Source of the DNA: Solirubrobacteraceae bacterium
GTDB taxonomy: Bacteria > Actinomycetota > Thermoleophilia > Solirubrobacterales > Solirubrobacteraceae
Assembly: GCA_030690545.1 (NCBI GenBank)
Contig: JAUYGN010000124.1
Coordinates: forward strand, 1 to 64,000
DNA: 64,000 bases
Direction of reading: 5' to 3'
Made by a program: the position numbers and the translations under genes. Each line of letters begins with the position of its first letter. Position 1 is the stretch's first letter. Positions 1 to 43,925 of the stretch are shown in pieces. The notes below the pieces were generated by a model. The model ran no database searches. It was not told where the DNA came from and worked only from the letters and a program-made list of their open reading frames with translations.

Positions 1-158
1 GCCGCCGGCGGCGCGGCCGCGAGCGTGACGGCGCTGCCGCAGCCCGAGCAGCGCGCAAGCGCGTACGCGCCGGGCAGGGCGGGGTCGGAGCCGGGCACGG
101 TGCGCCACGCGGCGAGCCCAGGCTCGCCGCAGGCTGGACACGGCTGCTCGGCTGTCAT
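1..158 (-). CDS. N-terminal end of a zinc-ribbon protein, probably a SAM methyltransferase (cut by left edge)
   Basis: Reading the minus strand from an ATG at 158 gives about 52 residues that stay open to the left edge. They begin MTAEQPCPACGEPG and continue to ARCSGCGSAVTL. The paired Cys motifs CPAC (Cys7, Cys10) and CSGC (Cys37, Cys40) form a four-cysteine zinc ribbon, with Trp18 and Tyr32 between them. Actinobacterial class I methyltransferases often start with this kind of ribbon; the catalytic domain would lie outside the window, so the methyltransferase call is inference. No clear ribosome-binding site precedes the ATG. The 225 bases between this start and the CBS gene hold nothing I recognise. 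Confidence 0.55.
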   Translation of the reverse strand, partial: MTAEQPCPACGEPGLAAWRTVPGSDPALPGAYALARCSGCGSAVTLAAAPPA

Positions 159-383
159 GTCACGCGGCGAACTGCCGGCACTCGCTCGCACGCGCTCCGA
201 CGGAGCCGAGCTGGCCGCCATCCGAGCGGCGGGCCTCCGTCGTGGCAGGCGCTCGCTCGCACCCCGCTCCGATCGCGTCGAAGGAGGGCCTGGTGCACGG
301 CTGGGCGCCGGAGGGGCGCAGGACACACGACTGCGACGCTCGAAGCGGCGCACGCGACGCTCCCGGAACGATCCCGGGTGCGG

Positions 384-10344: not shown

Positions 10345-11262
10345 TCAGCGAGCGCGTGTGACCGGAGCCGGCTCGGACACTTCAGCGGCCACGCCGAGCA
10401 GCGGATGCTGGGTGTCGAGCGCGCGGTCGGCCGGCGGATCGGCGAGCGCCAGTGCCTTCGGCAGGCGGGGGCTGGCCTTCGTGCGCCACTCGGTGACGGG
10501 CTGCAGCACGCCGCGCAACGCCAGCGCGCCGCCGACGTACCGTGGCGCCCAGACACGCGCCGAGCGCCGTGCGACGCCGCGCTCGATCGCGTCGACCGCC
10601 TCCGACAGCGGCGCAGCGCGCTTGACGAAGCCGGGCATCACGGCGGTCAGCTGCTGCGTCGAGGGATGCGCGAAGCTGCCCCTCACGAGGTCGGTGTCGA
10701 TGAAGCCGAAGTAGGCGCAGCCGACGCGTGCCCCGCTGGGTGCGAGCTCGACGCGCAGGGCGTCGGTCATCGCCTCGACGCCGGCCTTCGACGCGGTGTA
10801 GGCGCCCATCAGCGGCGCGTGGCTGGCGGCGCTCAGCGACGAGACGTTCAACAGGTAGCCGCGGTTGCGCACGATCTCGTCGATCACGGCGCGGTTCGTG
10901 CGCCAGGCGCCGAGCAGGTTGACCTCGATCGTGCGCTCGAAGTGCTCGCGCGGCATCGTCGCCATCCGGCCCATGAACTGGATGCCGGCGTTGGCGATCG
11001 CGACGTCGATCGCGCCGAAGCGCGCGACCGTGCCCTCGACGGCGGCGACGAGCGCGTCGTAGTCGGTGACGTCCGCTTGAAACCAGGCGGCGCGCGCGCC
11101 GAGGCGCTCGGCGAGCGCGGCGAGCGTGTCGGGCTCGAGGCCGACGAGCGCCACGTTGGCGCCGGCGGCGTGCAGCCGCTGCGCCGCGGCGGCGCCGATC
11201 CCGCGCGCGGCGCCGGTGATGAAGACCGTCCGCCCGGCGACGTCGAACCGCGAGCGCGCCAT
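10345..11262 (-). CDS. Short-chain dehydrogenase/reductase (SDR)
   Basis: A 305-residue classical SDR with the NAD(P) motif TGAARGIG near residue 17, the NAG motif (IANAGIQ) near 90, the catalytic Ser in LNVSSLSAASH and the Tyr-Lys pair in YTASKAGVEA. It would oxidise an alcohol or reduce a ketone with a nicotinamide cofactor. The C-terminal extension beyond the SDR core (from about residue 250) is Pro/Arg-rich. The ATG overlaps the stop of the flavin monooxygenase gene (ATGA), so the pair is translationally coupled; a dehydrogenase beside a Baeyer-Villiger-type enzyme suggests an alcohol to ketone to ester route. The substrate is unknown. Confidence 0.88.
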   Translation of the reverse strand: MARSRFDVAGRTVFITGAARGIGAAAAQRLHAAGANVALVGLEPDTLAALAERLGARAAWFQADVTDYDALVAAVEGTVARFGAIDVAIANAGIQFMGRMATMPREHFERTIEVNLLGAWRTNRAVIDEIVRNRGYLLNVSSLSAASHAPLMGAYTASKAGVEAMTDALRVELAPSGARVGCAYFGFIDTDLVRGSFAHPSTQQLTAVMPGFVKRAAPLSEAVDAIERGVARRSARVWAPRYVGGALALRGVLQPVTEWRTKASPRLPKALALADPPADRALDTQHPLLGVAAEVSEPAPVTRAR

Positions 11263-12821
11263 CAGGCCGCAGCCGCCGGCGTCGTCGCCGGAGCCGGTGT
11301 CGTCGACGCCGCGTCGGTGTGGTGGCGCAGCGTGTAGGCGGGCGGATCGAAGCGCCGCGTGCGCCGCCGGAAGCGGAACGTGAAGTCCGGCCAGATCGTC
11401 GTGTTGCGCCCGTCGGCGTCGAGGTACCAGCTCGCGCAGCCGGACATCCAGACGGTGCCCGGCAGCTTGGACTGCAGCTGCGCGTTGTAGGCGCGCATCG
11501 CCTCGGGGCGGACCTCGAAGGTCGCGATCCGCTGCTCGTCGATCACGCGCAGCGCGTCGAGCACGTAGCGCAGCTGGGCCTCGATCATGAAGACCATCGA
11601 GTTGTGGCCCAGGCCCGTGTTGGGCCCGATCAGCTTGAAGAAGTTCGGCATCCCCTCCATCGTCGCGCCGAGGTAGGCCTGGACTCCGCCCTGCATCCGC
11701 TCGGCGAGCGTGCGCCCGTCGCGACCGCGCACGAGCGCCGCGGTCGGCGGATCGGTGACGTGAAAGCCGGTCCCGAGGATGATCGTGTCGACCTCGCGCT
11801 CGCTGCCGTCGTCGAGCACGATCGCGTTGCCGTGGATCTCGCGGATGCCGTCGGTCACGAGCTCGACGTTGGGACGCGTCAGCGCCGGATACCAGGCGTT
11901 GGAGATCAGCACCCGCTTGCAGCCGAGGCGAAACCGCGGCGTGAGCTTGCGGCGCAGCTCGGGGTCCCTGACCTGGCGGTGCATGTGGGCCGTCGCGATC
12001 CGCTCGGCGCCGCCCATGATCCGCGGGTTCTTGATGAAGCCCAGCAGGAAGCTCTCGCGGCTCCAGTAGACGCCCGCGCGGACGGCCTTCTGGAGGAACG
12101 GCAGGGTCTTGTAGATGCGCCGCTCGACGCGCGTCGTGCGGCGGTCGGAGTGCGGCAGGATCCACGGCGCCGTGCGCTGGAAGACGTGCATCTGACCGAC
12201 GCGGTCAGCGATCTGCGGCACGAACTGGATCGCCGAGGCGCCGGTGCCGATGACGGCGACGCGCTCGCCGCCGAGGTCGTGGTCGTGATCCCACTCGGCG
12301 GAGTGAAAGACCTTGCCCTGAAACCGTCGCAGGCCCCTGATGCGCGGCACCTGCGGATAGCTCAGCGGGCCGCTGGCGTCGACGACGACCTGCGCCGTCC
12401 AGGCGCCGCGCGACGTCTGCACGCTCCACAGCTCGCGCTGCTCGTCCCAGGCGGCGCCGGTCAGCTCGTGGCCGAAGCGGATGTGCGGACGCAGGTCGTG
12501 CTCTTCTGCGACCGCTTGCAGGTAGCGCCAGATCTCCGGCTGGCGCGAGTAGGTACGCGTCCAGCTCGGGTTGGGGGCGAAGGAGAACGAGTACAGGTGC
12601 GATGGGACGTCGCACTGGCAGCCCGGGTACGTGTTCGCTTGCCAGGTGCCGCCGACGTCGTCGGCGCGCTCGATCAGGACGAAGTCCTCGATGCCCTCCT
12701 GCTTGAGCCTGATCGCGAGGCCGAGGCCGGCGAAGCCGGTCCCGACGATCGCGATGCGGACGTGCGGCACGGCGCCGCGCGCCCCGTTCTCGGACGGCGT
12801 CTGGAGCTCGATGACGCTCAT
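11262..12821 (-). CDS. Flavin-containing monooxygenase, Baeyer-Villiger type
   Basis: A 519-residue two-dinucleotide-fold flavoprotein. The FAD site GTGFAG lies at residues 27-32, the NADPH site VIGTGASAIQ around 190, and between them is the Baeyer-Villiger fingerprint FxGxxxHxxxWD (FQGKVFHSAEWD). The long N-terminal stretch GGTWQANTYPGCQCDVPSH is typical of class B BVMOs, which insert oxygen next to a ketone. The ATG overlaps the stop of the large membrane-protein gene and its own stop overlaps the SDR start, making a tight three-gene operon. A ketone derived from a steroid, terpenoid or alkyl chain is possible, but the sequence does not decide. Confidence 0.9.
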   Translation of the reverse strand: MSVIELQTPSENGARGAVPHVRIAIVGTGFAGLGLAIRLKQEGIEDFVLIERADDVGGTWQANTYPGCQCDVPSHLYSFSFAPNPSWTRTYSRQPEIWRYLQAVAEEHDLRPHIRFGHELTGAAWDEQRELWSVQTSRGAWTAQVVVDASGPLSYPQVPRIRGLRRFQGKVFHSAEWDHDHDLGGERVAVIGTGASAIQFVPQIADRVGQMHVFQRTAPWILPHSDRRTTRVERRIYKTLPFLQKAVRAGVYWSRESFLLGFIKNPRIMGGAERIATAHMHRQVRDPELRRKLTPRFRLGCKRVLISNAWYPALTRPNVELVTDGIREIHGNAIVLDDGSEREVDTIILGTGFHVTDPPTAALVRGRDGRTLAERMQGGVQAYLGATMEGMPNFFKLIGPNTGLGHNSMVFMIEAQLRYVLDALRVIDEQRIATFEVRPEAMRAYNAQLQSKLPGTVWMSGCASWYLDADGRNTTIWPDFTFRFRRRTRRFDPPAYTLRHHTDAASTTPAPATTPAAAA

Positions 12822-14830
12822 CGTGTCGAACCGCTGTACGTGCCGGCGCCGGTCGGCTCGAGCTCCGGCTCGCGTCCGGGCTCGGCCTGGGCGGGATCGG
12901 CTTCGGGTTCGGGCCGTCGCGCCCAGTCGGGCAGGTCGGCGGACTGCAGGATGAGGCTCGGGTCGGGCTGCGGATCGGGCTCGGCGGGCTGCGCCCACTC
13001 CGGCAGCGGCGTGTCGCGGATGCGACCGGCGGTCACCGCGACGCGGTGCAGGCCCCAGGCGAGCATCGCCAGCAGCCCGAACGTCAGCCCGAGCACGACC
13101 GCGTAGGCGCTGTTGGTGAGCGTGCTGCCCTGCACCTTGGCCTCGCGCTGCAGCAGCTCCTTGTCGGAGAAGAACGGGCGCTCGAAGCGCGCCGGCGCGG
13201 GCACGGCCGGAGCCGGGATCGCCCGGTCGGCCGGCGCGTAGATCGGCAGCCCCGTGATCGAGCGGCCCTCGTGCAGGCGGACCATCGTCTTCCAGGAGCC
13301 GTGCACGGGGATCGGCTGCGTCGTGCGGTAGACGCCCTCCGAGACGCGCTGCAGGCGATCGGTGATCAGCGGCGCGCCGCCCTGCCAGGCGGTCACCGTG
13401 AACCACTTCGCGTCGCTGGCCGCGTCGCGCGGGCTCAGCGTGATCGTGGCGTTGACGGTCCGCTCGGCGCCGCCCTGGACGTTCGTCAGCACGACCTCGC
13501 CGGTGATGCCGGTCGTCGCCTTCGTGAACAGGGGGAACGCGAGCAGCGCGAAGATCGCCAGCGCGGCGGGGATCGCGGCGTAGCGCAGGTTGGGGTCGTA
13601 GGGGATCTCGTCGGATGCCAGGCGGGCGCCGATCCAGGCGCCGAGGACCGACGCCGCGATCGCCATCGCGAGGCCCATGACGATCGTCTCGGCGAGGATC
13701 TCGCTGACCCACGGCAGCGGCATCCAGACGTGCGACCAGCCCCACTCGGCGGCCAGGCCGATCGTGCCGATCAGCGCGCCGGCGGTCGCGCCGAACGCCA
13801 GCGGGCGGCGGACGGCGACGAGCATCGCGGCGGCCTCGACGGCGAGCGCGGAGGCGATGTACAGCGGGAAGTGCGGCAGCGCCTCGCCGAGCGAGTTGTG
13901 CACCGACAGCGCCAGCAGGCCGCGCATGACGAGGAAGAAGGCGACGGCGCCGAACATCGCGTTGCGGCCGAGCCAGATGCGGGTCGCGACGAGCGTGACG
14001 CCGGCGGCGAGCATGATCAGCATCGGGTGGAAGACGAGCTGGAACTGCGGCACGCCGAAGTCGAACTCGCCCTGGAAGGTCGACAGGCCGACGAGCAGGC
14101 CGCCGGGCAGCCAGACGACGCGCAGGTGGCGCACCCAGGCCTTCTCGAGATGCATGACGCCGGCGACCTTCATCGCGCGGACGACCTCGACCTGGATGAC
14201 GGCGATCGCCACCAGCGTCATGACCGCGCCGCCGATCAGCATCAGGTGCGTCGGACCCCAGAGGGTCACGTCCTGGCCGAAGATGCGGTGCCAGACGTCG
14301 TCGAGCGGGAAGGCGATCAGCGAGAACAGGCCGGTGACGCACATCAGGACGCCGCCGAGCGGGGCGTACCAGTCGCGCGAGATGCGGATCGCGGTCGGTC
14401 CGGGGCGGTCGGCGCGCTCCTCGCGGCCGAGGCAGATCGCGAAGAAGCCGGCGGCGAAGATGCCGTACAGGCCGGCGAGGATGAAGAAGTGGCCCGGGTT
14501 GCCGAAGACGTTCGTGTCACGGCCGCGGTCGATGTGCAGCGAGACGTCCCAGTAGAGGCCGAAGACCGACGAGATGAGCGAGATGATCGCCAGGCCGCAG
14601 GGCAGCGAGGCCCAGGCCGGCTGGCCCGACACGCGCTCGGCGAAGCGCTCGAACCAGCCGAGCGTCGGGATCAGCTCCCCGCGGTGGCCGAGGCCCCCCA
14701 GAAGCAAGACGATGATCGCGAAGCCGGCGATGCCGCCGGCAAGACCGAGTTCCTCGGTCGACACACCGCCGGCACCGGGATCGGTCACGGCGGCGGCGAT
14801 GGTGCTAGCCGTTGCATGGAAGGCGCTCAT
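12818..14830 (-). CDS. Large polytopic membrane protein with an extracytoplasmic beta domain
   Basis: A 670-residue protein with about 12 hydrophobic helices in the first 430 residues, then a soluble region from about 435 to 560 and one more helix near 590 (AYAVVLGLTFGLLAML), ending in a Pro/Glu-rich cytoplasmic tail. The soluble part (GEVVLTNVQGG to GSWKTMVRLHEG) has the look of a FixH/YtkA-like beta sandwich. Conserved-looking His residues occur in helix regions (NPGHFFILAGLYG, PTHLMLIGGAV, LVFHPMLIMLA), which would suit metal or heme binding, but this is inference. ATG 14830 is preferred to an upstream TTG at 14857. It leads the operon with the flavin monooxygenase and SDR. Confidence 0.75.
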   Translation of the reverse strand: MSAFHATASTIAAAVTDPGAGGVSTEELGLAGGIAGFAIIVLLLGGLGHRGELIPTLGWFERFAERVSGQPAWASLPCGLAIISLISSVFGLYWDVSLHIDRGRDTNVFGNPGHFFILAGLYGIFAAGFFAICLGREERADRPGPTAIRISRDWYAPLGGVLMCVTGLFSLIAFPLDDVWHRIFGQDVTLWGPTHLMLIGGAVMTLVAIAVIQVEVVRAMKVAGVMHLEKAWVRHLRVVWLPGGLLVGLSTFQGEFDFGVPQFQLVFHPMLIMLAAGVTLVATRIWLGRNAMFGAVAFFLVMRGLLALSVHNSLGEALPHFPLYIASALAVEAAAMLVAVRRPLAFGATAGALIGTIGLAAEWGWSHVWMPLPWVSEILAETIVMGLAMAIAASVLGAWIGARLASDEIPYDPNLRYAAIPAALAIFALLAFPLFTKATTGITGEVVLTNVQGGAERTVNATITLSPRDAASDAKWFTVTAWQGGAPLITDRLQRVSEGVYRTTQPIPVHGSWKTMVRLHEGRSITGLPIYAPADRAIPAPAVPAPARFERPFFSDKELLQREAKVQGSTLTNSAYAVVLGLTFGLLAMLAWGLHRVAVTAGRIRDTPLPEWAQPAEPDPQPDPSLILQSADLPDWARRPEPEADPAQAEPGREPELEPTGAGTYSGSTR

Positions 14831-15141
14831 AGGCGTCACCGTACCATGTAACGTCAAATGGTGTCAAATAGCGAAAAGGCCCGTGTCTATGGGCGTTTCG
14901 GGGTCTTTCGGCTGGCTGATCAGCCGCCCGCAAGCATGCGGGTTGCCGGTCGCCTGACCGTCGTGTGGTCACACGCGTGCTGTACCCGGTGGGCGAGTGC
15001 GGCGAGTGCGGCGAGTGCGGCGCGCGCGGCAGCCGCGAGGCCGGCGGCTTGAGCTCGCTATTCGAGCGCAACCTGCCAGCCTCGTCCCCGGGGCTCCGGG
15101 CCGGCCCGATGCTCGCTGACGCTCCCGCGCCGCGTCCGCGC
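14831..15141. other. Gene-free stretch with a 9-bp tandem repeat
   Basis: This 311-base gap between nuoN and the monooxygenase operon has no convincing reading frame. It holds the operator-like repeats at 14847-14869 and three exact, contiguous copies of GGCGAGTGC at 14992-15018 followed by a degenerate fourth. I see no RNA gene and no T-run terminator after nuoN. Confidence 0.6.
14847..14869 (-). promoter_or_regulatory. Candidate promoter/operator of the monooxygenase operon
   Basis: Upstream of the operon start the minus strand carries two copies of ATTTGAC ten bases apart (one DNA turn), the first reading TTGACA like a consensus -35 box. The site lies 17-39 bases before ATG 14830, in an AT-rich patch within otherwise GC-rich DNA. 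A repeat spaced by one helical turn is typical of a regulator site; the cognate regulator is not in the window. Confidence 0.4.
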
Positions 15142-16698
15142 CTACAGCAGCCCGAGCGCCGCGCCGGCGTCGCGCACGACGTCGAGCAGCGGCGAGGGGA
15201 CGATGCCGAGGATCACGGTCAGCGCGGCGAAGACGACCGCCACGCCGACGAGCTCGCCCTGCCCGCGCGCGCTCGTGGCCTCCTCGGCGCCGCCGGCCAG
15301 CAGCGGGGTCTCGCCACCGTCCGCCAGTGGCACGGGCTCCGTCGCGACGACGGTGCCGTCGTCCTCCGCCGGCTGCATCCAGATCGCCGCGATCACCTTC
15401 AGGTAGTACGCGAGGGAGATCATCGAGCCGACGACGATGAAGACCGCCAGCCAGGTGTAGGCGCCCGCCACGGCGGCCTCGATCAGATAGAACTTCCCGA
15501 TGAAGCCGGCGGTCGCCGGGAAGCCGGCGAGGGCGAGCATCGAGATCGTCATCGACCAGGCGAGCGCCGGCCGCGTCGCGCCGATCCCGTTCAGCGAGCT
15601 GATGTCGTCGCCGAGCGGCGTTTCGCGCTCGCGCGCCACGATGACCGCGAACGCGGCGAGGTTCATCACGAGGTAGACGGCGATGTAGAAGATCGTCGCC
15701 TGCAGCCCCAGGCGCGTCGCCACGACGACGCCCGCGAGCATGTAGCCGGCCTGGGCGACCGACGAGTAGGCCAGCAGGCGCTTCAGCGAGGACTGCCCGA
15801 GCGCGCCGACGTTGCCGACGACGATCGTGATCGCCGCCAGCACCGCGAGCGCCGGTCCCCAGTCGAGCGCGGCGTCGATCAGCGCGACGTCGAACAGGCG
15901 TAGCACGACGCCGAACGCCGCCGCCTTCGTCGCGACCGCCATGAAGGCCGTGATCGGCGTCGGCGCGCCCTCGTAGACGTCTGGCGTCCACTGATGAAAG
16001 GGCGCCACGGAGGCCTTGAACGCCATCCCCGCGATCGTCAGCGCGACGCCCGTCAGCAGTAGCACGTCGCTGGCGACGTCGCCGCCGGCCAGCACCTCGG
16101 CGATCCGGCCGAAGTCCGTCGAGCCGGTCGCGCCGTAGATGAAGGCCAGCCCGTACAGGACCGTCGCCGAGCCGACCGACCCGATCACGAGGTACTTCAG
16201 GCCCGACTCCAGCGACGAGGCGCGGCGCATCTCGGCCGCGCACAGCACGTAGAGCGGGATCGACAGCAGCTCGAGGCCGACGAACACCGCGACGAGGTTC
16301 TGTGCGGCGACGAGCACGATCATGCCCGCGATCGAGGACAGCAGCAGCGCGTAGTACTCGCCGTGCGCGAGCTCGCGCGGCGCGACGTGGCGCCAGGACA
16401 GCAGCACCGTCGCGATGCCGGCGACGCAGAAGAGGATCGTCAGGATCAGCGTCAGCTCGTCGAGGCGCAGCGCGCCGGCGATCAGGTCCGTGCGCTCGCC
16501 CCACCGGCCGACGCTCAGGCCGATCGCGATCGCCAGCGTGGCGATCGACAGCAGCGGCACGGCCGTCTCGCGCGCCGATCGCGAGCGCGACAGGCCGAGC
16601 AGGAGCACGACGATCGCGCCGAGGAAGACGGCGATCAGCGGCGACAGGCCCGCCCAGTCGACGTGCGGGGCTTCGATCGTCTCAGCGGTGGCGATCAT
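15142..16698 (-). CDS. nuoN: NADH-quinone oxidoreductase subunit N
   Basis: A 518-residue, roughly 14-helix antiporter-like subunit of respiratory complex I, one of the three large proton-pumping modules of the membrane arm. Recognisable segments are NLVAVFVGLELLSIPLYVL in the first half, the proton-channel helix KASVAPFHQWTPDVYEGAP and the downstream AYSSVAQAGYML, which together define the NuoN/Mrp fold. A charged insertion near residue 445 (PAEDDGTVVATEPVPL) lengthens the C-terminal part. Its ATG overlaps the stop of nuoM (ATGA). It is the last gene of the nuoJ-N block, with no clear hairpin terminator after it. Confidence 0.96.
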   Translation of the reverse strand: MIATAETIEAPHVDWAGLSPLIAVFLGAIVVLLLGLSRSRSARETAVPLLSIATLAIAIGLSVGRWGERTDLIAGALRLDELTLILTILFCVAGIATVLLSWRHVAPRELAHGEYYALLLSSIAGMIVLVAAQNLVAVFVGLELLSIPLYVLCAAEMRRASSLESGLKYLVIGSVGSATVLYGLAFIYGATGSTDFGRIAEVLAGGDVASDVLLLTGVALTIAGMAFKASVAPFHQWTPDVYEGAPTPITAFMAVATKAAAFGVVLRLFDVALIDAALDWGPALAVLAAITIVVGNVGALGQSSLKRLLAYSSVAQAGYMLAGVVVATRLGLQATIFYIAVYLVMNLAAFAVIVARERETPLGDDISSLNGIGATRPALAWSMTISMLALAGFPATAGFIGKFYLIEAAVAGAYTWLAVFIVVGSMISLAYYLKVIAAIWMQPAEDDGTVVATEPVPLADGGETPLLAGGAEEATSARGQGELVGVAVVFAALTVILGIVPSPLLDVVRDAGAALGLL

Positions 16699-18206
16699 GG
16701 GGTCTCCTCGAGCGGCGCGAAGGGCGTGCCACCGGGCAGGAGCTCGGCGGCCGCCGTCGGCGGCGGCGCGACCGTGCTCTCGCTGCGCTCCAGCGCGAAC
16801 TGCGGGTACAGGGCGATCGCGATGATCGCCAGCACGAGCGGCACGAGCACGAGCCCGTCACGCAGTGACAGCTCGCGCGACTCGACCCGCGCGCCCGTCC
16901 GGTTGTGCATCGTCGTGATGAACAGTCGCAGCGCGTAGATCGCCGCCAGGATGACGCCGGTGCTGGCGACGATCGCGATCACCATGTGATCGGTGAAGAC
17001 GCCCAGCAGGATGTAGAACTCGGCGGCGAAGTTCGCCGAGCCGGGCAGCGCGAGCGTCGCGAAGGCGACGATCAGGAACATCGTCGCGAGGATCGGCGCA
17101 CGCATCCCCAGGCCGCCCATGTCGCGGATGTCCTCCGAGCCCGACGCGCGCGCCGCCAGCAGCGCGACGATGAACAGCGCCGGCGCGACGACGAGGCCGT
17201 GGTTGAAGGACTGCAGCAGCGCGCCCTGCGCGCCCTGCGCGTTGAGCGCGAAGACGCCGAGCGTGATGAAGCCCAGTTGGGCGACCGACGAGTAGCCGAG
17301 GATCAGGCGCGCCTCGGTCGTCGTGAACGCCATCGCCGAGCCGTACAGGATCGAGGCCACCGCGATCAGCAGCAGCAGCGTCTGGAAGTGGTCGCTGGCG
17401 TCCGGGAAGAGCGGCAGGCAGACGCGCAGGAAGCCGTAGGCGGCGACCTTGCTCAGCACGCCCGAGAAGACCGCGAGCACCGGCAGCGGCATCGCGCGGT
17501 AGCCGTCGGGCATCCAGCCGTGCAGCGGGAAGGCCGGCATCTTGACGAGGAAGGCGGCCGCGAAGAAGAGGAAGATCCAGTTCTGCGAGGACTCCGCCAG
17601 CGGGCGCTCGGCGAGGTCGGAGAACGCGAACGACAGCTCGGGCGGGCCGGCCGCCGCCAGGACGCCGGTCGCGACCGCCGCCGTCAGCATCAGCAGCGAG
17701 CCGACGAGCGTGTAGATGACGAGCTTCATCGTCGCCTGCACGCGCCGCGCCCCGCCCCACATGCCCGTCAGGAAGAAGAACGGCACGAGCATGAGGTCGA
17801 AGAAGACGACGAACAGCGCGAGGTCCTGCGCGAGCAGCGCGCCCAGCACGGCGGTCTCGGCGACGAGGAAGTGGAAGTAGAACAACCGCGGCCGGTCCCA
17901 CTGGCGCAGGCTCGCCCACAGGATGCAGGAGAAGAAGAGGATCGCGGTCAGCGCGACGAGCAGCAGGTTGAGGCCGTCGAGGCCGAGCTTGTAGGAGATC
18001 CCCAGCTCGGCGATCCAGGTCTCGTCGGTGACGTACTGCAGGACGCCCGACCCGGAGTCGAAGTCGACGAGGTACGTCACGGCGTAGCCGAGCACGAGCG
18101 CCGCGCCGAGCAGCGCCAGGCGGCCGGCGAAGCGCGGCGGCGCGACGAGCGCCAGCACGGCGAACGCCACCGGCAGCCAGAGCATGATCGACAGGTGCAG
18201 GGTCAT
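16695..18206 (-). CDS. nuoM: NADH-quinone oxidoreductase subunit M
   Basis: A 503-residue complex I membrane-arm subunit. Key features are the glutamate-bearing helix FHFLVAETAVLGALLAQD, the channel segment VKMPAFPLHGWMPDGYRAMP, and GYSSVAQLGFITLG, all diagnostic of the NuoM antiporter-like fold. The sequence between these has the expected 14 hydrophobic helices. ATG 18206 is taken because it overlaps the TGA of nuoL; a longer frame to 18446 would run through nuoL. NuoM sits between L and N in the arm and moves a proton per catalytic cycle. Confidence 0.96.
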   Translation of the reverse strand: MTLHLSIMLWLPVAFAVLALVAPPRFAGRLALLGAALVLGYAVTYLVDFDSGSGVLQYVTDETWIAELGISYKLGLDGLNLLLVALTAILFFSCILWASLRQWDRPRLFYFHFLVAETAVLGALLAQDLALFVVFFDLMLVPFFFLTGMWGGARRVQATMKLVIYTLVGSLLMLTAAVATGVLAAAGPPELSFAFSDLAERPLAESSQNWIFLFFAAAFLVKMPAFPLHGWMPDGYRAMPLPVLAVFSGVLSKVAAYGFLRVCLPLFPDASDHFQTLLLLIAVASILYGSAMAFTTTEARLILGYSSVAQLGFITLGVFALNAQGAQGALLQSFNHGLVVAPALFIVALLAARASGSEDIRDMGGLGMRAPILATMFLIVAFATLALPGSANFAAEFYILLGVFTDHMVIAIVASTGVILAAIYALRLFITTMHNRTGARVESRELSLRDGLVLVPLVLAIIAIALYPQFALERSESTVAPPPTAAAELLPGGTPFAPLEETP

Positions 18207-20215
18207 GCGCTCATCAGGAAGTAGAAGGCGAGCGCGACGATGCCGACGACGATCAGCAGCGCGTAGTAGCGCAGGAAGCCGGTCTGGGCGGCGCGCACGG
18301 CCGAGGAGCCGGCGCGCACGACGCCGCTCGTGCCGCCGACGAGCAGGCCGTTGACGAAGATCCGCTCGAAGGTCTGGTGCGACCATGCGCCGAACCAGCG
18401 CACGGGCCGCACGACGAGCGCGTCGATCAGCTCGTCGAAGTACCACTTGTTGACGAACAGCGTGTGCAGCGGCGCCAGGCGCTCGCGCACGGTCACCGCG
18501 ATCTGCGGGTTCTTCACCCAGATGAGGTACGCGACGGCGATGCCGGCGACGCCGACGATCGCCCCGAGCACGAGGCCGAAGGCGATCAGCCCGTCACCGA
18601 GCTCGCGGTGATACAGCGCCGAGCCGGCGAACGTCGGATCGAGGAAGTCGTCGATCACGTGCACGACCTTGGGGATCTGCAGCACGCCGCCGACGATCGC
18701 CAGCAGCGCCAGCGCGCCCATCGCGATCTTCATCGTCGGCTCGCGCTCGGCGATGTGGTGCTCGGCGCCGGGGAAGCCGACCTCGGTGTCCTCGACCTCG
18801 CCGGTGGCGGGGTTCGTGTGCACCTCGGCGTGGTGCAGGTGGCCTTCCTCGAGCTCGCGCGCCTCGGGCACGGGCTCGCCGAAGAAGGTGCGGAAGATCA
18901 TCCGGAACGTGTAGATCCCGGTCATGAACGCGCCCGCGTAGCCGGCCACGTAGAGGATCCAGTACCAGCCGCCGCGATCGCCGATCAGCAGCAGGATCTC
19001 GTCCTTGGAGAAGAAGCCCGAGAACGGCGGCACGCCCGACAGCGCGAGGCCGCCGATCACCATGCAGCCGAACGTGAACGGCATCGCCTTCCTGAAGCCG
19101 CCCATCTTGTCGAGGTTCTGCTGGCCCGCCATCGCGGCGATCACCGAGCCGGCGGCCATGAACAGCAGCGCCTTGAAGAAGGCGTGCGTCATCAGGTGGA
19201 AGAGGCCGGCGGCGTAGGCGCCCGCGCTGACGGCCATCACCATGTAGCCGATCTGCGACATCGTCGAGTAGGCGATGACGCGCTTGAGGTCGGTCACCGC
19301 GATCGCGATCGTGGCGGCGATCAGCAGCGTCAGGCAGCCGACGATCGCGCCGACGTCGGCGGCTGTCGGGGCCAGCTCGAAGAGCGGGTGCATGCGCGCG
19401 ATCAGGTAGACGCCGGCGGTGACCATCGTCGCTGCGTGGATCAGCGAGCTGACCGGCGTCGGGCCCTCCATCGCGTCGGGCAGCCAGGTGTGCAGCGGGA
19501 CCTGCGCGGACTTCGCGAAGGCGCCGACGAGCAGCAGGATGCAGCCGGCCGTGAGGTCGCCGTCGCCGGGCTCGAAGGTCTCCCTGGCGTTCTCGAAGCT
19601 CTGCAGGAAGTCCAGCGTGCCGACGTGCTTGAAGATGAAGAACGTGCCGAGCACGAGGCCGACGTCGCCGAGCACGTTGATGACGAAGGCCTTGATGCCG
19701 GCGCTCGTCGCGGTCGTGCGGCGGTACCAGAAGCTGATCAGCAGGTAGGAGGCCGCGCCGACGAACGCCCAGCCGATGATCAGCACGAGGAAGTTGCCCG
19801 CCAGGACGAGCAGCAGCATCGAGAAGACGAAGAAGTTCAGGTACGCGAAGAAGCGCACGTAGCCCTGGTCGGAGGCCATGTAGCTGATCGAGTACAGGTG
19901 GATCAGCGTCGACACGCCCGAGACGACGAGGATCATGAAGACCGACAGCGGGTCGACGAGCAGCGACAGCTGGGCGTCGATGCCGACGGTGTTCGCGTAG
20001 TCCCAGGCGACGGCGACGACCTGCTGCTCGTCGGCCTCGCGGCCGGTCAGCGTGACGAGCGTCGCGATCGCCGCGGCGAACGACCCGGCGAGCGCGCCGG
20101 TCGCCAGGTAGCCGGCGCCGCGGCCCGGCAGCCGGCGGCCGACGAGCGCGACGGCGATGCAGCCGGCCAGCGGCAGCAGCAGCGTCAGCCAGGCGAAGAG
20201 CTTCAGCGACGTCAT
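18203..20215 (-). CDS. nuoL: NADH-quinone oxidoreductase subunit L
   Basis: A 670-residue subunit at the far end of the complex I membrane arm. The N-terminal module shows DPLSVFMILVVSGVSTLIHLYS, then GWAFVGAASYLLISFWY (NuoL-specific), AKSAQVPLHTWLPDAMEGPTP (channel) and AYSTMSQIGYMVMA. The C-terminal third contains a His/Glu-rich loop (EEGHLHHAEVHTN) and the long lateral helix region before the final transmembrane helix. ATG 20215 overlaps the nuoK stop. The His-rich loop is a mild oddity that could bind a metal, though similar loops occur in other actinobacterial NuoL proteins. Confidence 0.96.
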   Translation of the reverse strand: MTSLKLFAWLTLLLPLAGCIAVALVGRRLPGRGAGYLATGALAGSFAAAIATLVTLTGREADEQQVVAVAWDYANTVGIDAQLSLLVDPLSVFMILVVSGVSTLIHLYSISYMASDQGYVRFFAYLNFFVFSMLLLVLAGNFLVLIIGWAFVGAASYLLISFWYRRTTATSAGIKAFVINVLGDVGLVLGTFFIFKHVGTLDFLQSFENARETFEPGDGDLTAGCILLLVGAFAKSAQVPLHTWLPDAMEGPTPVSSLIHAATMVTAGVYLIARMHPLFELAPTAADVGAIVGCLTLLIAATIAIAVTDLKRVIAYSTMSQIGYMVMAVSAGAYAAGLFHLMTHAFFKALLFMAAGSVIAAMAGQQNLDKMGGFRKAMPFTFGCMVIGGLALSGVPPFSGFFSKDEILLLIGDRGGWYWILYVAGYAGAFMTGIYTFRMIFRTFFGEPVPEARELEEGHLHHAEVHTNPATGEVEDTEVGFPGAEHHIAEREPTMKIAMGALALLAIVGGVLQIPKVVHVIDDFLDPTFAGSALYHRELGDGLIAFGLVLGAIVGVAGIAVAYLIWVKNPQIAVTVRERLAPLHTLFVNKWYFDELIDALVVRPVRWFGAWSHQTFERIFVNGLLVGGTSGVVRAGSSAVRAAQTGFLRYYALLIVVGIVALAFYFLMSA

Positions 20216-20511
20216 CCGCGCAGCTCCTGCATCTCGTCGACGTCGATCGGCAGCTTGCGGCGGCGCATCGCGACGATCAGGCCGAGCCCGATCGTCACCT
20301 CGCAGGCCGCGACGACCATCACGATGAGGGCGAAGATCTGGCCCTCCATGTTGCCGTGCATGCGCGCGAACGCGATCAGCGCGAGGTTCGCGGCGTTGAG
20401 CATCAGCTCGAGGCAGAGCAGGATGACGAGCGGGCTGCGGCGCGTGAGCACGCCGAAGGCACCGATCGAGAAGATCAGCGCGGAGATCGCGAGAAACCAG
20501 CCGATGTCCAT
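20212..20511 (-). CDS. nuoK: NADH-quinone oxidoreductase subunit K
   Basis: A 99-residue, three-helix complex I subunit, the usual length for NuoK. The second helix has VILLCLELMLNAANLALIAF with the conserved membrane Glu used in the proton path, and the third has FALIVMVVAACEVTIGLGLIV with the second conserved Glu. Homologous to MrpC. Start ATG 20511 directly abuts the stop of nuoJ, and its own TGA overlaps the nuoL ATG. Confidence 0.96.
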   Translation of the reverse strand: MDIGWFLAISALIFSIGAFGVLTRRSPLVILLCLELMLNAANLALIAFARMHGNMEGQIFALIVMVVAACEVTIGLGLIVAMRRRKLPIDVDEMQELRG

Positions 20512-21285
20512 CTAGCGCTGGTCCTCCGGCGTCGCCGGGTCGTCGGCGGATGTGGGTTCGCCGGCGGGTGCCGGCTCGGTCGTGGGTGTGGGGTCGTCGG
20601 CGGGTGCGGGTGCGGGGTCGTCGGCGGGTGCGGGGTCGTCGGCGGGTGCGGACTCGGCGGCGCCGGCCTTCTTCGGCAGCGAGTGCGGTCCGCCGACGGC
20701 CTCGGCCATCGTGCCGGTGTAGGACGAGCGCAGGATGTCCATCGCGCTGTAGCGCTCCTGCTCCTCGGCGGCGCTGAGGCCGCCGCGGCGGCGCGCCAGC
20801 ACGACCGCGCCGACGACGGCGATCAGCAGCAGGAAGGACGCCAGCTCGAACACCAGCAGGTACTTCGTCAGCAGCAGCGTGCCGATCTCGGCGGGGCTGC
20901 CGAAGCTCGCCGCGACCGCCGCGCCGGGGCTGTCGACCAGCTGCAGGCCCGAGCCGAGCGTCGCGATGCTCAGCTCGATGAACAGCGCGACGCCGAACAG
21001 CACGGAGATGACCTTCAGCCCACGGCCCGCGCGCGGGCCGAGCGGTTCGTCCTGACCACCGATGTAGGCGACGACGAACACGTAGAGGACCATCACCGCG
21101 CCGGCGTAGACGACGACCTGGGCCGCGGCGACGAACTCCGCGCGCAGCAGGAGAAACAGCGCCGCGAGGCACAGCAGGTGCGAGACCAGCGCCAGGACGG
21201 AGTAGAACGGGTTGCGCAACGCCACAACTCCGATCGCCCCCGCCACGGCCCCGATCCCGGCCACGAAGAACAGCACCTCTCCCAT
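20512..21285 (-). CDS. nuoJ: NADH-quinone oxidoreductase subunit J with a repetitive C-terminal tail
   Basis: A 257-residue complex I subunit with the usual five helices in the first 165 residues, including NPFYSVLALVSHLLCLAALF and VVYAGAVMVLYVFVVAYIGG, whose pi-bulge helix is central to coupling in complex I. Beyond the last helix the protein runs on for about 90 residues, ending in a Pro-Ala-Asp repeat (PADDPAPADDPAPAPADD) encoded by 18-bp DNA repeats at 20591-20650. No ribosome-binding site precedes ATG 21285. Unlike a normal operon, nuoJ does not follow nuoI directly: a 1.8-kb plus-strand insert separates them. Confidence 0.93.
   Translation of the reverse strand: MGEVLFFVAGIGAVAGAIGVVALRNPFYSVLALVSHLLCLAALFLLLRAEFVAAAQVVVYAGAVMVLYVFVVAYIGGQDEPLGPRAGRGLKVISVLFGVALFIELSIATLGSGLQLVDSPGAAVAASFGSPAEIGTLLLTKYLLVFELASFLLLIAVVGAVVLARRRGGLSAAEEQERYSAMDILRSSYTGTMAEAVGGPHSLPKKAGAAESAPADDPAPADDPAPAPADDPTPTTEPAPAGEPTSADDPATPEDQR
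20591..20650. repeat. 18-bp repeats in the 3' end of nuoJ
   Basis: Three exact copies of GGGTCGTCGGCGGGTGCG (plus strand) lie at 20591-20608, 20615-20632 and 20633-20650; the last two are contiguous and the first is six bases away. Read on the minus strand they encode the PADDPA-type repeats of the NuoJ tail. Slippage at this site would change tail length in steps of six residues without breaking the frame. Confidence 0.85.
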
Positions 21286-21294
21286 GAAGCGCGC

Positions 21295-21300
21295 AATCTA
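21295..21300 (-). promoter_or_regulatory. Candidate -10 box for nuoJ
   Basis: TAGATT on the minus strand lies nine bases before the nuoJ ATG, in a short AT-richer patch, with a weak TTGATC thirteen bases further upstream. If it is a -10 box, the transcript would be leaderless or nearly so, which fits the lack of a ribosome-binding site. nuoJ-N needs a promoter here, or read-through across the plus-strand insert. Confidence 0.3.
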
Positions 21301-21363
21301 TCTGCCTGGGCGCGATCAAGAACCCTGACGCGCCTTCGCGCGGTCGGCGGTACGCGTGCGGCG

Positions 21364-43307: not shown

Positions 43308-43520
43308 CTATCGCTCCTCGGGATCGCACCCACAACCTCGTCGCAGAGGTTGCCGCGTGGGCTCAGGGGTCGGAAGTTCGTCACGTCGCGGGCTCCTACT
43401 GAGAACGTCATACGGCCACCGGCGCCGTCCGGATGGTAGGTCTACCCGCTCTCGGCGCCGTCGTCCGGCTCGGCGGTCGTGACGAGTCGTGGCACCGGGG
43501 CCGCGCAGCAGGGGCAAGAG

Positions 43521-43607
43521 CGGAGGGGGCGGGATTCGAACCCGCGATCCGCTTTCACGGACTCTGGTTTTCAAGACCAGTGCATTCAACCGCTCTGCCA
43601 CCCCTCC
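43521..43607 (-). tRNA. tRNA-Ser(UGA)
   Basis: On the minus strand a complete 87-base tRNA with acceptor arms GGAGGGG/CCCCTCC, anticodon loop CTTGAAA (anticodon TGA), a long variable arm as expected for serine, and T-arm GCGGG-TTCGAAT-CCCGC. The discriminator base is G; no CCA is encoded. It is transcribed away from the tRNA-Ser(GCU) gene. Confidence 0.96.
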
Positions 43608-43712
43608 AGCAGGACAGACCGTAGCGCCCGGATCGCAGGCGGTGTGCGCCCGCCCGGCACCCCCAGGTCGCGTCCTGCGGGCCGCCCGCAGCGCGCTCCG
43701 GCGCGCCACCCC

Positions 43713-43718
43713 TAGACT
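43713..43718 (+). promoter_or_regulatory. Candidate -10 box for tRNA-Ser(GCU)
   Basis: TAGACT lies 19 bases upstream of the tRNA 5' end, within a CCCTA/TAGGG inverted repeat (43710-43723). It matches the -10 pattern TAnnnT and is the only AT-rich spot in this interval. No good -35 box is seen. Confidence 0.4.
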
Positions 43719-43737
43719 TAGGGCCCGAGCCGTGCCA

Positions 43738-43826
43738 GGAGAGGTGGCCGAGTGGCTGAAGGCACTCGCCTGCTAAGCGAGTATGGGGATTAAACTCCAT
43801 CGCGGGTTCGAATCCCGCCCTCTCCG
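43738..43826 (+). tRNA. tRNA-Ser(GCU)
   Basis: An 89-base serine tRNA: acceptor GGAGAGG/CCTCTCC, anticodon loop CTGCTAA (anticodon GCT) closed by CTCGC/GCGAG, a long variable arm and T-arm GCGGG-TTCGAAT-CCCGC. CCA is not encoded. Followed after 19 bases by tRNA-Arg, probably on the same transcript. Confidence 0.96.
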
Positions 43827-43845
43827 CTACATTGCTCCACCCGTT

Positions 43846-43919
<74 letters not shown>

Positions 43920-43925
43920 CTCACG

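Follow-up and report, generated by a model that had tools for sequence, protein, structure and literature searches.

We analysed a 64,000-nucleotide stretch of DNA (the window; contig JAUYGN010000124.1, positions 1 to 64,000, of a Solirubrobacteraceae bacterium) and describe here a 670-residue membrane protein, C0, encoded on its minus strand (12818..14830, an open reading frame with an ATG start) ahead of a type I Baeyer-Villiger monooxygenase (BVMO) and a short-chain dehydrogenase/reductase (SDR). That the first half of C0 is a distant homologue of PmoC/AmoC, subunit C of the copper membrane monooxygenases (CuMMOs), is well supported. A preliminary description of this DNA had suggested that C0 handles copper or heme; the homology and two sites resembling CuC and CuD make copper the likely metal, while nothing in the ligand set suggests heme. 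With moderate confidence, we favor the reading that C0 is a copper membrane enzyme sharing an ancestor with PmoC and AmoC, and that it works as a one-chain monooxygenase whose alcohol product goes to the SDR and the BVMO.

Probable metal sites and fold of C0

Across 83 aligned sequences, H99, H114, H181 and H195 are the only His conserved in at least 97% of rows, and no His between residues 200 and 670 reaches 90%. The preliminary description had noticed several His in the helices of C0, and these four invariant residues indeed sit at helix ends. We also examined 110 rows, made up of the 83 and more divergent members; near-copies were removed from the first 83 rows only, and at least one gene stands twice, as L014 and L230; L233, which repeats the window, and the truncated L236 and L253 were excluded. 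All 110 rows keep D95, H99, R104, H114, D177, H181, D187, W191, P193 and H195. The invariant residues make two copies of a D-x3-H...H pattern, each placed where one helix ends and the following one begins: site 1 (D95-x3-H99-x4-R104-D105-...-H114; 14489..14548, minus strand) and site 2 (D177-x3-H181-x13-H195; 14246..14302, minus strand). In the 83-sequence alignment, charged and aromatic residues are conserved throughout the chain.

The PmoC ligands are given as D156/H160/H173 for CuC and N227/H231/H245 for CuD (PMC12576850), and in our reading both patterns recur in XmoC sequences, ten of them viral and three actinobacterial. Site 1 is the counterpart of CuC (D-x3-H-x12-H), with D, H and H in 110 of 110 rows; its two His are separated by x14 in the window copy, by x13 in the majority of divergent members and by the x12 of PmoC in L251, L252 and L254. 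The C-site is called completely conserved (PMC9038741). Site 2 is the counterpart of CuD, with Asp in place of Asn. Examples of the first site in divergent members are DVSWHIDFGRDEFLFTPSH and DVSWHVTIGRETFWVPPH, where PmoC has DGTWHMTVIRDTDFTPSH; their second site reads DELWHRAYGIDVTLWSPTH, equivalent to NEWGHTFWFMEELFVAPLH in PmoC. The R and D that follow the first His of site 1 at H+5 and H+6 (R104 and D105) have identical counterparts at those offsets in XmoC.

A short relative of C0 is found in L269 (9292-10422). It has 376 residues, keeps both sites, the first at exactly the PmoC spacing, and stops before the position of the outer domain described below; it is possibly a minimal or intermediate form. 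L252 holds a similar short relative, ended by the end of its contig.

The AlphaFold2 model of C0 (pLDDT 89.4, pTM 0.90) has the 13 helices that had been predicted, provided that a short helix at residues 325-337 is counted. Helices 1-5 make up the PmoC-like domain (residues 20-232; 14135..14773, minus strand; pLDDT 88.6 and pTM 0.87 in a model of its own). Beyond this half, C0 carries seven helices (231-434), a beta sandwich (443-552) and a C-terminal membrane helix (569-599; 13034..13126, minus strand).

Residues 20-232 were modelled alone, a construct chosen with PmoC in mind, and searched against an unrestricted library. Foldseek ranked PmoC (7s4h_C) first of 350,542 PDB chains (probability 0.89, E 0.067), with further PmoC or AmoC chains at ranks 3, 4, 5, 17 and 27. 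In VIA, PmoC and AmoC took ranks 1-4 and 6-8, that is, seven of the first eight, with Z of 9.4-10.8 over alignments of 171-178 residues at 3.8-4.6 Å and 7-13% identity. Positions 1..208 of the model were placed on 81..275 of 7s4h_C, a range that, as a range, matches what would be expected if D95 falls on D156. With Z about 10, we consider a subunit C fold in residues 20-232 likely rather than certain.

Family databases gave little: for C0, Pfam offered no useful match (a single chance one, E 0.16), and NCBIfam and PDB sequences gave none. PF04896 was absent from Pfam scans of the window C0 and of other family members (in one member scan, among the best 25 of 36 families), and searches for PF04896 in 1 and in 61 genomes were empty, as were those of control genomes. 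Profiles were more informative. The A5 profile, built from the window C0 and 18 relatives (19 sequences), had a single match at E<=10 among 177,635 PDB sequences, namely AmoC (E 0.2), aligned on the site 1/CuC motif; in hhalign, A5 matched XmoC with P 2e-4 over 91 columns and with both sites in register. A profile of 17 divergent members scored 36.6 against XmoC, compared to 26.1 for the best of 200 column-shuffled controls, and gave no match to XmoA or XmoB (P 0.3 and 0.46). The motif D..WH.{4}[RQ]D.{4,6}P[ST]H occurs 209 times in 2.96 million open-frame residues from 226 records, and all 209 matches are of C0 or XmoC type, judged by their letters. A looser form, D...H.{5}D.{4,6}P.H, is also present in a neighboring family, C7, which we take to be isochorismatase-like with a metal site at this motif. 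We accept homology to PmoC/AmoC because these statistics, each of them modest, point to the same family in the same register.

Loops on the side of the sites contain one K or R in 42 residues (five loops), those on the opposite side 11 in 67 (six loops); because this distribution fits the positive-inside rule, sites 1 and 2 would face outwards. The beta domain (13175..13504, minus strand; strands taken from the model, no conserved His) would share that side, provided that the short helix 325-337 spans the membrane. The domain had been described as an outer YtkA/FixH-like domain, and the model does have a beta sandwich there. Its best confined match is 9g6b_C, chain C of a cbb3-2 'NOH' complex (Z 7.7, 100 aligned residues, 3.6 Å, 17% identity), plausibly CcoH/FixH to judge from the title of the structure; it also resembles the copper-resistance protein CrdA (9ll4_A, Z 6.7). 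Because a Z below 8 may reflect merely a common arrangement, we regard 'FixH-like' as plausible and unproven. Any likeness to CcoH/FixH would lie in the beta-sandwich fold; unlike that protein, the C0 domain is embedded between the membrane helices of a large protein and has no Pfam match.

Gene order and neighborhoods of C0

The host assembly is actinobacterial (3.53 Mb in 149 contigs), with Solirubrobacteraceae metagenome-assembled genomes (MAGs) as its nearest named relatives. On the minus strand of the window, C0 (14830->12818) is followed by the BVMO (12821->11262) and the SDR (11262->10345). Because stop and start codons overlap at both junctions (ATGA at the start of the BVMO, TGATG at the start of the SDR), the three genes are very probably co-translated, and the tightly coupled three-gene set first reported from this DNA is confirmed. 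The span then given was 12818-14869; the gene itself runs from 14830, and the rest of that span takes in the upstream repeats.

Both enzyme assignments are borne out by Pfam and by family fingerprints. The BVMO (11262..12821, minus strand) matches PF00743 at 66.5 bits and contains the motifs FxGxxxHxxxWD and GGxWxxxxYPGxxxD, which we take to be BVMO fingerprints; it fits FxGxxxHxxxW(P/D) with FQGKVFHSAEWD and has two Rossmann motifs, GTGFAG and GTGASA. The SDR (10345..11262, minus strand) matches PF00106 at 158 bits (E 2e-46) and has the classical motifs TGxxxGxG, NAG and YxxxK as TGAARGIG, NAG and YTASK.

Of the 61 genomes around the window, 38 have a C0 homologue (the genome of the window is one of them); in a sample of 246 Actinomycetota genomes the figure is 29. 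From 142 confirmed C0 loci in our genome collection we kept 80; a set of 100 loci with flanks (L031-L110 and L256-L275) covers 548 kb within 3 kb of C0 and 820 kb farther away. Ten of these 100 loci have a BVMO (at least 150 bits) no more than 3 kb from C0, and none has one in the farther flanks; L098 holds a weaker, cut-off BVMO-like match of 106 bits about 5 kb from C0. Among the 61 genomes, a BVMO lies within 3 kb at no fewer than 15 of 62 C0 places, in at least 14 of the 38 C0-bearing genomes, compared to about one place expected from even scatter; six of the 14 genomes belong to the genus of the window, and the BVMO match in G025 is weak (130 bits, 30%). The two counts are not independent because the sets overlap (for example, L048 and L052 appear to belong to G012 and G023). 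The comparison with other genomes that the preliminary description had called for does not refute the linkage, since BVMO genes adjoin C0 in distant relatives as well. In a tree of C0, which omits three of the 100 loci (no sequence of 300 residues), BVMO-linked genes stand at four places and several branches are long; a single origin of the linkage with later losses may be compatible with the count among the labelled rows.

An SDR (at least 42 bits) is found within 3 kb in 27 of the 100 loci, with six matches farther out; most of the 27 are from Actinomadura and only about 30% identical to the SDR of the window. Alpha/beta hydrolases stand beside C0 in four loci: L034, L052 (the same as L301), L284 and L300. 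Other neighbors are an acyl-CoA dehydrogenase (L274), a 3-beta-HSD-like epimerase (L257), a fatty acid desaturase (L256) and a WS/DGAT (L059). Some do not fit an oxidation pathway: a peptidase M29 (L287), a transglycosylase (L048) and an Orn/Lys/Arg decarboxylase with a DUF427 protein (L077). Six neighbors that we examined, in L282, L283, L290, L259, L262 and L260, had no family. The clustering of neighbors in 40 loci, used just to choose which to examine, recovered C0 itself in 38, missing the window copy and L268.

Several further features of these loci deserve mention. A divergent gene for a MerR-family regulator lies directly upstream of C0 in L284, L285, L287, L289, L293, L294, L037, L053 and L256; the MerR cluster is present in 15 of the 40 loci and was checked with Pfam in L084, L285 and L289. 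Its position hints at metal or small-molecule control. In L267 (11347-14849), the BVMO adjoining C0 is interrupted, its homology lying in pieces about 2.5 kb apart. L038, a record titled as a Bifidobacterium breve MAG, holds a Solirubrobacterales-like C0, probably through a binning or naming error.

A second clade of C0, from Actinomadura, Rhodococcus, Gordonia and Mycobacteriaceae, has different neighbors: C2, a cupredoxin-like lipoprotein (for example, L102:10030-10434; E 7.5e-5 against PF13473, below Pfam's cut-off), and C1, a polytopic membrane family with no Pfam or NCBIfam match (for example, L102:10434-11744 and L043:6074-7393). C2 is present in 52 and C1 in 55 of the 100 loci, and C1 never occurs together with the BVMO. 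The C2-C1 pair also accompanies xmoCAB, and CopC and heme-copper oxidase genes are found at distances of up to about 11 kb from it. We examined ten plasmid stretches that carry a C1 relative; xmoC is in view in four of them, CopC, PCu(A)C or oxidase genes are in four, and two have neither. Weaker C1 relatives occur in haloarchaea and alphaproteobacteria, in Sulfitobacter beside PCu(A)C. C1 looks like a general copper-linked membrane protein. We also considered 'fenitrothion hydrolase' as an annotation for C1 and found it unsupported: the plasmid records call C1 hypothetical or leave it unannotated, and the literature matches for that name concerned insect microbiomes.

The pair of ATTTGAC repeats that had been reported upstream of C0 is confirmed. 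The copies are exact, lie 10 bp apart (14853-14869, minus strand), and are the sole match in the window at up to three mismatches; 0.23 such pairs are expected by chance, and 21 of 100 shuffles held at least one. They fall inside a probable promoter, read by eye, at 14838..14869 (minus strand; TTGACA, 18 nt, then TACGGT, which fits TANNNT and ends 7 nt before the ATG). In none of five loci from the same genus (L002-L006) did we see the exact repetition. These loci read ATTGGACACCAACTGACG or similar at that position and keep a TTGACA-like hexamer; TACGGT follows 18 nt past the hexamer, just before the ATG, in L002-L005, and L006 has TAGGCT. We set aside the repeat as an operator because it is not conserved while the hexamer and TACGGT are kept; it is probably part of the promoter. 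A scan with the sigma-70 consensus found no promoter site upstream of C0.

Elsewhere in the window, large membrane open reading frames upstream of C0 on the same strand (15142-21319) presumably encode complex I subunits, and their homologues are also upstream of C0 in L032, L033 and L035. Genes for tRNA-Ser(tga), tRNA-Ser(gct) and tRNA-Arg(acg) are clustered at 43520-43920.

A proposed oxidation pathway and its alternatives

If C0 is an oxygenase, copper at site 1 (D95/H99/H114), site 2 (D177/H181/H195) or both would activate oxygen near the outer face of the membrane, and C0 would hydroxylate a hydrophobic compound dissolved in the membrane. The SDR would oxidise the resulting alcohol to a ketone, the BVMO would insert oxygen into the ketone to give an ester, and a hydrolase would act after it. 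Overall, this would amount to subterminal oxidation of a hydrocarbon, a terpenoid or another lipid-like compound. We infer the oxygenase activity, the order of the reactions and the class of substrate. In subterminal alkane oxidation, a monooxygenase, an alcohol dehydrogenase, a BVMO and an esterase act in turn. To our knowledge, such pathways start with a P450, AlkB, a di-iron enzyme or a CuMMO, not with a C0-type protein. The likeness to the alkane pathway lies in the BVMO and SDR of one operon and in the alpha/beta hydrolases by C0 in relatives. BVMOs are named among the enzymes of bacterial subterminal degradation (PMC4192553).

A number of results weigh against an oxygenase derived from PmoC. 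Each statistic for the homology is modest alone: the Foldseek E exceeds 0.001, the PDB profile match has E 0.2, and a Z near 10 can be reached by helical bundles, as by a designed bundle with 9.9 in VIA. Several profile variants were tried with no correction; with a P0001-weighted profile, hhalign gave no match to XmoC in global mode and a marginal one, in the right register, in local mode (P 0.03). Whole-model fold searches did not list PmoC, which appeared only with the separate domain, and the background for the strict motif consists of the flanks of C0 and xmoC genes, not of a random set. As for the sites, the CuD pattern (N-x3-H-x13-H) differs in C0, where Asp replaces Asn in 110 of 110 rows at the same positions and spacing; D-sites are described as dispensable for catalysis and as conserved within bacterial lineages only (PMC9038741). 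No CuB histidine brace was found, the only His conserved in at least 97% of sequences being the four of the sites; CuB itself is reported not to be universal in particulate methane monooxygenase (pMMO; PMC12576850). We found no xmoA, xmoB or xmoC match within 3 kb of C0 in any of the 100 loci, and hhalign did not relate C0 225-440 to XmoA (P 0.17) or 438-605 to XmoB (P 0.15), with three sequences per alignment. Finally, linkage to a BVMO is a minority pattern (10 of 100 loci) that never coincides with linkage to C1. C1 as a dedicated partner of C0 is itself weakened, as it is present in 55 of the 61 genomes compared to 38 for C0, and it was not found in the genome of the window.

The main rival, which we consider unlikely though worth serious attention, holds that C0 is a copper chaperone, loader or uptake component derived from PmoC, working in the outer leaflet with no oxygenase activity, and that the BVMO operon is a lineage-specific hitch-hiker. 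The largest clade, which couples C0 to C2 and C1, speaks for it, as do the CopC, heme-copper oxidase subunit III and cytochrome oxidase assembly genes near C1 and C2, and the failure to find a CuB site or A and B partners. However, C0 was not found in 23 of the 61 genomes, whose respiration presumably depends on copper all the same; its coupling to genes for BVMO, SDR and hydrolases recurs in separate branches; and the conservation of charged and aromatic residues along the whole chain exceeds what we would expect of a loader.

It seems improbable to us that the likeness to PmoC is convergent, with C0 a helical bundle that binds zinc or iron through a common D-x3-H...H geometry. The borderline single statistics, the Z that bundles reach by chance and the looser motif in C7 would all allow for this. 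Yet C0 has two sites in the same order as PmoC, each bridging a helix end and the next helix start; R104 and D105 share their offsets with the R and D of XmoC; among the open frames scanned, the strict motif is confined to those of C0 and XmoC type; and XmoA, XmoB and shuffled controls fail. Least probable of all is the proposal of the preliminary description that C0 brings in, or acts as a sensor for, the hydrophobic substrate on which the BVMO and SDR work: apart from the 13 helices of a membrane protein and the gene overlaps with both enzymes nothing supports it, Pfam, NCBIfam and PDB sequences gave no credible transporter or sensor match (member scans gave scattered weak matches, the best being LtrA in one or two members), and the most conserved residues are two metal-ligand triads in a half that folds like PmoC.

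C0 and the copper membrane monooxygenase family

Like PmoC, AmoC and HmoC (PF04896), C0 has helix pairs that carry [DN]-x3-H...H twice and in the same order, and residues 20-232 have their fold. Unlike them, it has a site 1 loop that is one or two residues longer in most members, its chain continues with eight more helices and a beta domain, and it has no xmoA or xmoB alongside. Because neither CuB histidines nor A and B subunits were found, we place C0 outside the three-subunit CuMMO family as now defined; it is a PmoC homologue in a new architecture. The actinobacterial hydrocarbon monooxygenase HmoCAB, for example that of the Mycolicibacterium chubuense NBB4 plasmid, shares with the mycobacterial C0 clade its C2 and C1 neighbors, but consists of three separate subunits, including one of PmoB type, whereas C0 is a single chain. 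It is tempting to speculate that C0 founds a single-chain branch of copper membrane oxygenases, with a catalytic half of PmoC type, seven helices in place of PmoA and an outer module of one domain in place of PmoB, in the order C-A-B. We offer this as a tentative idea with somewhat less than even prospects, resting as it does on order and helix number. No description of the C0 family appeared in titles or abstracts among the literature matches listed, and papers outside that literature could describe it.

The aerobic oxidation of methane and that of ammonia both begin with a step catalysed by copper membrane monooxygenases. The location of the active site in pMMO is described as controversial for three decades (PMC12576850). 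If our reading of C0 is true, a protein with CuC- and CuD-like sites and no CuB would be a natural experiment that places oxygen chemistry in subunit C, and a one-chain C0 would test directly whether that subunit is catalytic. A relative with just these two types of site might also be easier to express and mutate than a three-subunit complex, and, to judge from record titles, C0 is found in culturable Actinomadura, Rhodococcus and Mycolicibacterium. Actinomycetota are known for the degradation of hydrocarbons and steroids. C0 would add to them a hydroxylase that has gone unrecognised, and would explain an orphan membrane protein present in well over half of the genomes around the window (38 of 61).

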